This document shows, piece by piece, positions 2,088-4,824 of a stretch of DNA of 64,000 nucleotides. Position numbers and translations under genes: made by a program. The notes below the pieces were generated by a model. That model saw only the letters and a list, made by a program, of their open reading frames with translations. It ran no database searches and had not been told where the DNA came from. Location of the stretch: NCBI GenBank assembly GCA_031177985.1, contig JAPSJW010000001.1, positions 929,534-993,533 of the forward strand. The letters are read 5' to 3'. Positions within the stretch are counted from its first letter, which is position 1. Every line of letters starts with the position of its first letter. The DNA comes from Microbacteriaceae bacterium. Lineage in GTDB: Bacteria; Actinomycetota; Actinomycetes; Actinomycetales; Microbacteriaceae.

Positions 2088-3344
2088 ATGAACCCACGAC
2101 ACCCCTTCCTCGGCCTCGGCATACCAGCGTCCGATGTCCCTTCGAGCCGCAGCAGCCGCGCCGGCCTCGCCATCGCCGCGGGGGCGACCACGCTCGCTCT
2201 CATGCTCACCAGCTGCGCGGGCGGAGCGTCCGTCGACGGCGGGAGCGCGACAACGACCTCCGCCGCGGCGACGCCCACCATCGCCAGCAGCGACGAGAAC
2301 ACCTCGACGACGACCGCCGAGACTCTCGCGGAGACGGCAGCAGCCGCACAACGCCTGCTGGAGACGTTGAGCGAGGAACAGCGCGAGCAGCTGCTTCATG
2401 ACTACGACGACGCCACCAGAACCACATCGTGGTCGAACTTCCCCGTCACGTTCGTGGAGCGCGCCGGACTCAACCTCTCGGAGCTGACGGGGGAGCAGCG
2501 CTCGGCCGCCATGGGGGTGCTCGCGGCGCTGCTGAGCCAGGACGCCTACGAGACCGTAGTCGGCATCATGGAGGGCGACGCCTACCTCCTCGAGAACAGC
2601 TCGAGCGGCGAGACGTCGCTCGGGCAGTACTACATCGCCTTCTTCGGCGACCCGACGGATGCCGATGCCTGGGAACTGCAGTTCGGCGGACACCACCTCG
2701 GCATCAACGCCACCCTCGACGGCGACGAGGAGGCGATCACGTTCGCCCCGACGCATCTCGGTGTGCAGCCCGCGGTCTATGCGAGCGCCGAGGGGGCGGA
2801 GGTGCAGCCGTTCTCGGGCATCTACGAGACGGCGTTCGCGTTCTACGACAGCCTCACCGACGAGCAGAAGGCCGACCTCTACCAGGGGTCGGAGATCGCG
2901 AGCATGGTGTGCGCCCCGGGTGACACGTGCTCCTACCCGACTGGCACCGGCCTCGCGGGTTCCGAGCTGACCGACGAGCAGAAGCAGCTGCTGCTCGACG
3001 TCATCGCGAACTGGGCAGGTCTCGCAGACGAGCAGACGACGGCCGACGCGCTCGCGGCGATCGCCGAAACACTCGACGAGACCTACATCGACTGGTCCGG
3101 CGCGACGGTCTACGACATGACGCAGGGGAACGGCATCTACTTCCAGATCTCGGGTCCTGACGTCTACATCGAGTTCGCCTCGCAGAAGGGATCAGCGGGC
3201 GCAGACGTCGACGGCGTCATCACGGCGGGGTGGGGCCACGTGCACACCATCTACCGCGACCCCTCGAACGACTACGCCGACAGTGTCGAGCAGCAGGAGG
3301 CCAGTGGGCTGGGCGGCCCCGGTGGCGGCCCCGCGGGCGGGTGA
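2088..3344 (+). CDS. DUF3500 domain-containing lipoprotein
   Basis: The 418-residue product starts at ATG 2088. An N-terminal segment with Arg followed by a hydrophobic helix ends in a lipobox-like LTSC near residues 40-43, so it is probably a secreted lipoprotein. A Ser/Thr/Ala-rich linker follows to about residue 75. The rest matches the DUF3500 architecture: helices with repeated LTxEQ segments, the FGGHHLGIN motif near residue 205, and a C-terminal GWGHVHTIYRDPSNDY motif. Family members are extracytoplasmic proteins of unknown activity; the conserved His pairs could bind a metal (inference). No convincing ribosome-binding site precedes the ATG. It ends with a Gly/Pro-rich tail. Confidence 0.85.
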   Translation: MNPRHPFLGLGIPASDVPSSRSSRAGLAIAAGATTLALMLTSCAGGASVDGGSATTTSAAATPTIASSDENTSTTTAETLAETAAAAQRLLETLSEEQREQLLHDYDDATRTTSWSNFPVTFVERAGLNLSELTGEQRSAAMGVLAALLSQDAYETVVGIMEGDAYLLENSSSGETSLGQYYIAFFGDPTDADAWELQFGGHHLGINATLDGDEEAITFAPTHLGVQPAVYASAEGAEVQPFSGIYETAFAFYDSLTDEQKADLYQGSEIASMVCAPGDTCSYPTGTGLAGSELTDEQKQLLLDVIANWAGLADEQTTADALAAIAETLDETYIDWSGATVYDMTQGNGIYFQISGPDVYIEFASQKGSAGADVDGVITAGWGHVHTIYRDPSNDYADSVEQQEASGLGGPGGGPAGG

Positions 3345-3472
3345 ATCCACGGTCGGATCGATTCTCGCGAGTCGCTGTCAGACGCTTCCTACGGCTGCGC
3401 GCCGGCACGGATGTCAGTGGTCGCGTCTACGTTGGAAGAAAACGTGCGACACGCCGAAACACTAGATGTAGG

Positions 3473-3494
3473 GGAATGACACGACTGTCATTCC
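3473..3494. promoter_or_regulatory. Perfect 9-4-9 operator palindrome
   Basis: GGAATGACA (3473-3481), spacer CGAC, then TGTCATTCC (3486-3494) form a perfect inverted repeat. The left arm contains the -35 hexamer of the peptide-gene promoter and the right arm fills the spacer, so a protein bound here would block RNA polymerase. Two further TGTCA half-sites lie upstream at 3376 and 3412. The cognate regulator is not identifiable from this window. Confidence 0.75.
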
Positions 3495-3505
3495 GGTTAT
3501 ATAGT
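3476..3505 (+). promoter_or_regulatory. Sigma-70-type promoter of the small peptide gene
   Basis: The -35 is ATGACA (3476-3481, five of six to consensus), the spacer is 18 bp, and the -10 is TATAGT (3500-3505, five of six). This is the best consensus promoter in the window. Transcription is expected to start near 3512, leaving a leader of about 40 bases with a strong ribosome-binding site. Confidence 0.8.
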
Positions 3506-3552
3506 GGGACGCACCGCAGAAGCGGTACTCGACAGACTTAGAGGAGGATCAG

Positions 3553-3636
3553 GTGGACAACGAGAACGACACCGTCGGCGGCTACGCAGTTCCGGTCGAC
3601 CCGATGGATCTCCTGCAGTGCGACAGCTGCCAGTAG
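3553..3636 (+). CDS. Small orphan peptide, 27 residues, C-terminal CxxC
   Basis: A GTG start at 3553 is preceded at good spacing by GGAGG in a purine-rich leader (3541-3552), and a TAG stop follows 27 codons later. The peptide is acidic at the N-terminus, has a GGYAVPVDP middle and ends DPMDLLQCDSCQ, with cysteines at positions 23 and 26. It is a separate transcription unit: a near-consensus promoter with a perfect operator lies upstream, and a strong hairpin terminator lies 34 bases after the stop. I do not recognise the family. It could be a ribosomally made peptide precursor, a metal- or thiol-binding micropeptide, or a Cys-rich leader peptide. No maturation enzyme, transporter or protease gene is adjacent, and the next gene downstream encodes only a 75-residue membrane protein. 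Confidence 0.7.
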   Translation: MDNENDTVGGYAVPVDPMDLLQCDSCQ

Positions 3637-3668
3637 GCACCTCCCGCACTCGCGAGATTTAGCGCAGG

Positions 3669-3699
3669 AGCCCCCGACACCGAGAAGGTGCCGGGGGCT
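3669..3699 (+). terminator. Strong intrinsic terminator of the peptide gene
   Basis: A 13-base left arm (3669-3681) pairs with 3687-3699 with one A-C mismatch; the loop is GAGAA. A TCTTC tract follows. This is one of the strongest hairpins in the window. GGCACC at 3636-3641, overlapping the peptide stop codon, could alternatively pair with GGTGCC at 3687-3692. Confidence 0.85.
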
Positions 3700-3773
3700 T
3701 CTTCATGTCCCGCAACCCCTCGCGCGGTTCACGAGCTGCTGCCTACCGTGGATCAGGAAACGAGGGAGGAACC

Positions 3774-4001
3774 GTGCGCGGGAAGACGGTCATCATCGTC
3801 GGGGCGATTCTGTTCGTGCTGGGCGTCACGGCGCCGATCTGGCTGCCTTTCGTGGTCCCGGCGGCGAGCGACGACATCGAGGGGGCGGTGCGCGGCGCGT
3901 CGCTCTGGATCGCCGCGATCCTGGGGGCAGGTGGCGCGTCCCTCGCCGTCTGGGGTGTCGTCGGGATGAGGCGCAGCCGCGCGGAGCGCGACGGGCGCTG
4001 A
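3774..4001 (+). CDS. Small two-helix membrane protein
   Basis: A 75-residue hypothetical protein starting at GTG 3774, chosen because GGAGG lies six bases upstream. Hydrophobic segments at about residues 4-24 and 42-64 predict two membrane helices, with a short outside loop (PAASDDIEG) and a basic C-terminal tail (MRRSRAERDGR). No family is recognised. The gene follows the terminator of the small peptide gene, so any link to that gene would depend on read-through. It is convergent with the ABC permease gene downstream. Confidence 0.65.
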   Translation: MRGKTVIIVGAILFVLGVTAPIWLPFVVPAASDDIEGAVRGASLWIAAILGAGGASLAVWGVVGMRRSRAERDGR

Positions 4002-4047
4002 GCTGCGACAGCAAGAGGCCCGGTCGCGCTGAGGACGACAGGCCCCA

Positions 4048-4824
4048 TCACCGGGAGAGGTTCCGGTAGGCGTGCGCCGACAGGGGCAGCAGCACTGCCG
4101 TGAGCGCGAGCGGCCAGAGCAGGGCGAGGGGAAGCGCCCACTCCGCGAGGATGCCGCCCGAGACGCCGGTCGGGTTGCCGAACAGCTGGCGCACCGCCGT
4201 GGCGGTGGCCGACAGCGGGTTCCACTCCGCCACCGCCGCGAGCCCGGCAGGCAGCCGCTCCGGTGAGACGAAGACGGTCGACACGAAGCCGACCGGCCAC
4301 ATCACCATCCCGATGGCGACCTGCGCGGGCCCCTTGAGCGTCAGCGCGAAGAACACGCCGACCCACAGCAGGGCGAAGCGGAGCCAGAGGAGCAGCAGCA
4401 GCCCCAGGAGGATCGCCGCGGGTGAGGCGGATGCCCGCCAGCCGAGCAGGAGACCCACGGCCAGCAGCAGTGCGAACTCGATCGCCGACATCAGCAGATC
4501 GGCGCCCCCTCGCCCGAGCACGATGCCCGAACTGTTCATCGGCATGGCGCGGAGGCGGTCGGTGATGCCGCGCGTCGCATCCGCCGTCATCGCCGTCTGC
4601 GTGGAGCTCAAGCCGAACAGCACAGTGAGGGTGAGCAGGCCAGGCACCAGGTAGCCGATGTAGTCGTCGCCCCCGGGCACGACGATCGAGCCGCCGAACA
4701 GCACACCGAAGATCAGCAGCTGCATGACGGAGAAGACCAGGTTCAGCAGGGGTGTCGCGGGCTGGCGGATCCAGCGGAGCAGCTCCCGCTGGGTGAGCAG
4801 GCCGCCTGAGCGGAGGGCGTTCAT
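4048..4824 (-). CDS. ABC-2 type transporter permease
   Basis: A 258-residue permease with about six membrane helices and the ABC-2 arrangement seen in daunorubicin-type exporters: a cytoplasmic N-terminus (LLTQRELLRWIRQPATPLLN), a first helix pair, a cytoplasmic MTADATRGITDRLRAMPMN segment, then four helices. It pairs with the ATPase gene at 4821, and the two overlap by four bases (ATGA), so they are translationally coupled. Predicted role is export of a drug-like or lipid substrate at the cytoplasmic membrane. The substrate cannot be inferred. A divergent MerR-type gene upstream of the ATPase is the likely regulator. Confidence 0.88.
   Translation of the reverse strand: MNALRSGGLLTQRELLRWIRQPATPLLNLVFSVMQLLIFGVLFGGSIVVPGGDDYIGYLVPGLLTLTVLFGLSSTQTAMTADATRGITDRLRAMPMNSSGIVLGRGGADLLMSAIEFALLLAVGLLLGWRASASPAAILLGLLLLLWLRFALLWVGVFFALTLKGPAQVAIGMVMWPVGFVSTVFVSPERLPAGLAAVAEWNPLSATATAVRQLFGNPTGVSGGILAEWALPLALLWPLALTAVLLPLSAHAYRNLSR

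Follow-up and report, generated by a model that had tools for sequence, protein, structure and literature searches.

A 27-codon frame in the window, the whole 64-kb stretch of Microbacteriaceae DNA that was analysed, was found by sequence comparison to be homologous to the C-terminal CxxC tail of the class I R1 protein, the large, catalytic subunit of ribonucleotide reductase (RNR), which produces the building blocks of DNA. The terminal thiol pair is located on a polypeptide of its own and is absent from R1. We regard it as very probable that this free tail acts in trans, docking on a tail-less R1 (NrdA) and supplying its active-site disulfide with electrons that come from a thioredoxin-type reductant. 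In favour of this reading were the homology to fused tails, the lack of a tail in R1, the co-occurrence of R1 and peptide, the coding constraint on the peptide and the NrdR-like boxes shared with R1 promoters; further evidence came from genomes with a remote copy only and from phage records that contain the peptide and lack R1.

One small transcription unit, consisting of a promoter-like element, a dyad, a ribosome-binding site, a GTG frame and a hairpin, was detected within positions 3345-3773 of the window. The features of this region were as follows.

3412..3433, plus strand: RecA-NDp (PafBC-type) promoter motif, TGTCAGTG-N8-TACGTT
3459..3474, plus strand: NrdR-like box 1, ACACTAGATGTAGGGG, 12/16 to the NrdR consensus
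3473..3494, strand not applicable: perfect 9-4-9 dyad, GGAATGACA-CGAC-TGTCATTCC, the centre of an NrdR-type site
3476..3505, plus strand: sigma-70-like promoter, ATGACA-N18-TATAGT, with the -10 element within NrdR-like box 2
3492..3507, plus strand: NrdR-like box 2, TCCGGTTATATAGTGG, 10/16 to the NrdR consensus and 17 bp from box 1
3542..3547, plus strand: ribosome-binding site AGGAGG, 5 bases 5' of the start codon, read from the sequence
3553..3636, plus strand: free-standing homologue of the R1 C-terminal redox tail, 27 amino acids, GTG start, ending LQCDSCQ
3666..3702, plus strand: GC-rich hairpin, a likely terminator, -30.1 kcal/mol, z -4.3

The full 27-codon peptide is MDNENDTVGGYAVPVDPMDLLQCDSCQ, with the C-terminal part ...VPVDPMDLLQCDSCQ. 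An earlier note on this DNA had described a self-contained gene, placed behind an operator, that encodes a small CxxC peptide, and this description was right: the near-consensus promoter, the strong ribosome-binding site and the 27-codon frame with its C-terminal CxxC (CDSCQ) were all confirmed, as was the sequence of the perfect 9-4-9 operator over the promoter, which proved to be the middle of a longer NrdR-like site. The promoter was the sole sigma-70-like match in 3345-3773 (mean of 0.1 in shuffled sequences), and the dyad was unique in the 64 kb with up to two mismatches allowed and was not found in 100 shuffles. The claim of a strong terminator held in part; the hairpin is stable, but it is followed by a weak U-run and was not among the matches of the consensus terminator scan. 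The neighbouring genes look unrelated to the tail gene, with a DUF3500 protein followed by DUF1206 and ROK proteins upstream and a 75-amino-acid frame without a family and an ABC-2 permease downstream. As the earlier note had stated for the adjacent genes, no RiPP maturation gene was present among the five neighbouring frames scanned (ROK, DUF1206, DUF3500, ABC-2 permease and the family-less frame). Pfam and NCBIfam scans of the 27-amino-acid peptide gave no match above the cut-off, an Rfam scan of the window detected a single tRNA and nothing else, and database entries named the peptide 'hypothetical protein' in two of seven matches and gave no name in the others.

Many matches to the tail peptide sat between two RNR genes. 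In the wider class, 13 of 246 genomes searched, besides that of the window (G000), matched the peptide profile. In 12 of these 13 loci the end of the R1 barrel, a GFG-containing linker and CP(V/I)DPQERLQCESCQ were in one frame, while at the thirteenth (L065) only the last 63 codons were visible. The fused R1 of other families of the class ends ...CPVDPQERLQCESCQ. As the tail core is fused to R1 in these families, the free peptide was interpreted as an R1 tail that is encoded apart.

The R1 of G000 (L031:2935-5415, 826 amino acids, at G000:C13) matched NF005101 at 1652 bits, against a cut-off of 988, as well as PF02867, of which it is the single match in the genome, and contains an ATP-cone. 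Its only cysteines are at positions 227, 305, 441 and 456. Cysteines 227, 441 and 456, which we take to be the equivalents of C225, C439 and C462 of Escherichia coli, lie in the motifs LANCFV, NLCTE and VCNL, and Cys 305 is the fourth. These three motifs aligned with the matching regions of Pseudomonas aeruginosa NrdA (5im3). The stop codon of R1 overlaps the start of a second tail frame (MNERTSFEEYYVPVDPMDDLQCDSCQ), after which R2 (PF00268) follows. The description of the window gene as an orphan was thus correct as to its position but not as to a partner, since the likely partner, the tail-less NrdA, is encoded elsewhere in the same genome.

The same arrangement was observed in other R1 loci. 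R1 ended before the tail in all 30 loci examined, with the tail in a separate frame and not a covalent part of the protein, and no cysteine followed the TTYYLH motif in any of the 30. A tail ORF lay directly downstream of R1 in 29 of them, mostly abutting or overlapping the R1 stop. All three frame relations to R1 occurred among these 29 loci, five ORFs being in frame and 24 not, and the start codon and spacing also varied. The tail cysteine was absent from 119 of 120 R1 proteins (the best 120 of 7889 database matches). The lone exception among them, P0066 (857 amino acids), shifts frame after the linker and runs into the tail ORF, and its tail is either a natural re-fusion or a sequencing error.

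Co-occurrence was examined in 150 genomes of the bacterial family. The R1 type and the peptide were both present in 69, the peptide alone in two and neither in 79, and there was no genome with this R1 alone. The 69 include two genomes (G060 and G123) in which R1 fragments fell below the family cut-off, leaving 67 above it. The peptide-only genomes were G135, which is 77% complete, and G163, whose peptide match had an E value of 1.8e-4. G163 was also the only one of 77 genomes with a weak match to the tail-less R1 family in which a peptide match was detected.

A DNA search with the window gene gave a match in 19 of 59 genomes, its own included; four of these matches (L016-L019) contained no such frame, and that in G057 was a tail fused to R1. 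The peptide profile matched in 71 of the 150 genomes. The profile, built from 20 peptides, had 12 invariant positions (M1, Y11, P14, D16, P17, M18, L21, Q22, C23, S25, C26 and Q27), and the C-terminal CxSCQ was present in all 20 aligned rows. In a named genome collection, 321 tail places were confirmed, and the best 80, which were kept, came from Galbitalea, Salinibacterium, Microcella, Leifsonia, Cryobacterium, Glaciihabitans, Humibacter, Rhodoglobus, Aurantimicrobium or unnamed actinobacterial assemblies. The tail gene of Salinibacterium amurskyense is L107. Because the scan utilized the pattern DPMDxLQC[DE], the conservation of these residues is in part a result of the search itself. Among 79 distinct orphan ends, many of them fetched by the DPMDxLQC pattern, 2320 non-synonymous and 11724 synonymous single-base codon differences were counted in pairs that are not independent, a ratio of 0.20 versus 4.1 for all possible single changes. 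Homologous frames and coding constraint, the absence of which the earlier note had named as evidence against its proposal, were therefore both detected. Some long open frames around the tail were rejected as fusions, being alternative GC-rich frames, as was shown for an 897-amino-acid frame of G028.

Most genomes looked at also carry an operon-linked tail, so the window copy may be dispensable there. Three genomes (G015, G075 and G160) had no tail frame in the R1-R2 junction. Each had one peptide match, remote from R1 and accompanied by NrdR-like boxes. G015 and G075 have one PF02867 match each and no PF13597 (NrdD) match, and the remote peptide is therefore the sole candidate to complete their R1, which is the strongest argument for action in trans. 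G160 provides weaker evidence, having two PF02867 matches, and its tail copy is identical in sequence to L142.

Further copies were observed at the ends of longer frames. The third tail copy of G000 (G000:C7:574310-574366; L032, about 3658-3870) is at the end of a longer frame whose upstream part has a weak likeness to SSB (PF00436, E 0.0066, below the cut-off), and no NrdR-like pair was detected at this copy (score 13). At L274 (3139-3486, minus strand), L275 (2816-3226, minus strand) and L284 (3064-3702, minus strand) the tail forms the C-terminal end of longer, unrelated frames, in genomes that hold five or six tail copies; the 93-amino-acid frame of L275 matched no Pfam family.

A conserved 49-bp site, bounded on each side by an NrdR-like box, has the 9-4-9 dyad at its centre. 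Boxes were scored against the 16-bp NrdR consensus. The window pair scored 22/32 with a spacer of 17 bp and was the only pair of at least 21 in the 64 kb; none of 2000 shuffles reached 22, a score that is below the threshold of 23 used for the counts. The spacers allowed in scoring were 14-17 bp, the range for NrdR binding in the accessible text of PMC12051234. Of the 109 orphan regions, 73 had a pair of at least 23/32, as did 22 of the 31 distinct R1 promoters; counted by rows, two of which (from G000 and G015) are doubles, the latter figure is 24 of 33. No such pair was detected in 38 operon-copy, 69 viral or 13 fused-R1 regions or in 545 shuffles of orphan regions. Lowering the threshold to 21 gave 95 orphan sites, 92 of which had a 17-bp spacer and the consensus ACACtAcATgTaGtGGAATGACAtgcgTGTcATTCccGtTATATAGTGg, and left 14 of the 109 orphan regions with none. 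In the 92 aligned orphan sites the dyad, measured at the offset taken from the window site, was perfect in 31 and had eight of nine pairs in 39. R1-promoter boxes were similar, were mostly 16 bp apart and had a different centre. The central dyad GGAATGACA-N4-TGTcATTCc is conserved in the 92 orphan-tail promoters, and other sequence lies between the boxes of the R1 promoters examined; this difference suggested that the dyad may serve a second DNA-binding protein.

The RecA-NDp motif at 3412-3433 was the only exact TGTCRGTG-N8-TAnnnT match in the 64 kb on either strand. The pattern searched was the consensus of PMC5656591, tTGTCRgtg-N8-TannnT, without requiring the first lower-case t, and the motif is a PafBC target according to the portions of PMC5656591 and PMC6789036 that were available. 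Exact matches were detected in 33 of 94 NrdR-type orphan regions and 8 of 32 R1-promoter rows, compared with none in 1880 and 640 shuffles, respectively, and were absent from 37 operon-copy, 14 box-less orphan and 68 viral regions. An NrdR-sized ATP-cone protein other than R1, encoded at G000:C14, is likely to be NrdR.

Searches of deposited phages with tblastn located the peptide in four phages. In Pontimonas phage phiPsal1 and Clavibacter phages CN1A and CMP1 it falls in gaps of the annotation (frames at L182 3001-3069, L183 3001-3072 and L184 3001-3060, respectively), and in Pseudanabaena phage Pan2 it is part of a protein annotated as 'hypothetical protein'. The E values were weak (0.01 to 1), but the matches were supported by the exact C-terminal end and by the hosts of phiPsal1, CN1A and CMP1, which presumably belong to the same bacterial family as the window genome. 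In IMG/VR, 302 tail places were confirmed and the best 80 were kept; a frame ending CxxCQ was present in all 84 viral loci, that is, these 80 of 302 and the four deposited phages. Ten neighbouring proteins from seven of the loci were tested, and nine of them matched PHROGs, including terminases, a portal protein, an endolysin and an R2. R1-like genes are common in phages (at least 5000 records listed), and the absence of R1 was therefore checked within the tail-bearing records themselves. For the 84 loci, 40 records were searched whole and 44 were read locally only. R1 was present in none of the 40 and R2 in four; IMG/VR records may be fragments, and phiPsal1, CN1A and CMP1 were deposited as complete genomes. 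Presence of the peptide in phages together with absence of R1 is the pattern predicted if the peptide serves the R1 of the host. Large phage contigs with the tail and R2 and without R1 were seen at L188 (3150-4130), L211 (4126-5115), L254 and L257, and at L211 a frame with a weak intein-splicing match, below the cut-off (3174-4106), lies between the tail and R2.

During turnover two active-site cysteines of R1 are oxidised and are re-reduced by the C-terminal pair, which is recharged by thioredoxin or glutaredoxin, according to the sections of PMC9669993 and PMC5704485 that were accessible. With an R1 that ends without a tail and a matching free frame, the tail would be likely to work as a separate small peptide. 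We infer that this peptide is translated, and likewise infer its abundance, binding to R1 and thiol-disulfide exchange. The reduced peptide would enter R1, exchange thiols and leave oxidised, to be recharged in solution. The tail core is conserved even in fused proteins, in which a variable linker precedes it, and this suggests that it would dock on R1 through its own sequence. An AlphaFold2 model of the naturally fused P0066 and close relatives (30 rows, with P0066 listed twice) had a pLDDT of 38 and lends docking no support. NrdR would repress the tail gene when dATP is high, and DNA damage would induce it through PafBC. A separate gene would let the cell set the ratio of tail to R1 independently, and during dNTP shortage or DNA damage the supply of tail would rise along with RNR. 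A tail copy of their own would allow phages to serve the host R1.

The presence of an operon-linked copy in G000, and the control of remote copies by sites of their own, would also fit a division of labour in which the operon-linked tail works and the remote window copy is a regulator, competing for the R1 dock or for thioredoxin and thereby tuning or inhibiting RNR. We consider this improbable: the remote copy is the only one in G015 and G075, operon-linked and remote copies have the same CxxC core, and phages, which need dNTPs, nevertheless carry the tail. The position of most tail ORFs, which abut or overlap the R1 stop, and the single database R1 (P0066) that runs into the tail ORF raised the alternative that R1 acquires its tail by programmed frameshifting or readthrough into the adjacent ORF, with remote copies as relics. 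Such a mechanism is very unlikely given that five of 29 ORFs are in frame and 24 are not, with variable start codons and spacing, that three genomes have no tail frame at the R1-R2 junction, and that remote and phage copies are conserved at the codon level.

The earlier note had suggested a modified peptide, a metal or thiol sensor or a signalling peptide. The small size, the C-terminal CxxC and the lack of an adjoining partner gene are compatible with a sensor, a signal or a post-translationally modified peptide, but the proposal was not supported. Against it stand the presence of a tail-less R1 in 69/69 genomes, the position between R1 and R2, the NrdR-like boxes, the five neighbouring frames without a maturation gene, and the homology of the peptide to fused R1 tails, that is, to the very redox tail that R1 lacks; a role of this kind has only the slightest probability.

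On a broader scale, and with more reserve, we think it somewhat probable that an essential enzyme has shed its catalytic redox tail. The tail would now be a peptide cofactor of some 26 residues, free to diffuse and open to supply by any genome present in the cell. The extra bacterial tail would be under the control of dNTPs and DNA damage. Phages of this bacterial family would carry the peptide, with or without R2, in order to commandeer the host R1 for the synthesis of phage DNA, which would make it perhaps the smallest phage gene of nucleotide metabolism. Tails found on unrelated frames of plasmid-like or phage-like type would likewise carry this thiol pair. So far the swinging tail of R1 has been considered a permanent component of class I RNR. 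The concentration of a detached tail could be titrated without mutating R1, and old questions would hence become directly testable, namely, how the tail reaches the active site, whether turnover is limited by re-reduction and whether a single tail can serve more than one R1 chain. A detached tail would also account for hundreds of small frames that lack annotation (321 confirmed places in genomes and 302 in viruses), would extend the predicted NrdR and PafBC regulons by one gene and would show that phages may boost the dNTP supply of the host with a gene of very small size.

No report of a detached class I tail was found in the literature searched, which was mostly without subscription papers and is not proof of absence; in the portion of PMC9669993 available, class I RNRs are described as 'almost exclusively' having the double cysteine. 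By analogy, the detached tail may be viewed as a variant of split RNR, with the split class II enzyme NrdJa/NrdJb of P. aeruginosa (PMC4520616 and PMC5704485, in the parts available) as the precedent. According to the accessible text of PMC4520616, the apparent Kd of NrdJb for NrdJa is 260 nM, and NrdJb, which mediates the exchange of disulfides, is required in vivo. In both systems the catalytic subunit and the terminal thiol pair are encoded separately, and disulfide exchange in trans is proposed here by analogy. NrdJa/NrdJb, as far as these sources extend, is a B12-dependent class II enzyme, and NrdJb is a folded, cysteine-rich zinc-finger domain from an nrdJab operon, whereas the system of the window is class I, with a peptide of 22-30 residues, one CxxC, and unlinked and phage copies. 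The G000 R1 is not a class II subunit of the NrdJa/NrdJb type, since it is an NF005101 protein with an ATP-cone and an adjacent R2 gene (PF00268). The fused class I tail, as presented in the available part of PMC9669993, shares with the free peptide the CxxC at the extreme C-terminus and a conserved core, but the window tail has its own start, ribosome-binding site and promoter and lies outside R1. In Facklamia ignava a glutaredoxin domain is fused to NrdB (PMC6187632, partial text), and there, too, the electron-feeding chain of RNR has been rearranged between polypeptides; in that case a reductant has been fused on, whereas here the R1 tail has been split off. Split RNR genes of phages likewise place coding parts of RNR on separate phage frames, but those described in the accessible text of PMC3653736 are broken by introns, inteins and homing genes, whereas 0/40 of the tail-bearing phage records contained R1.
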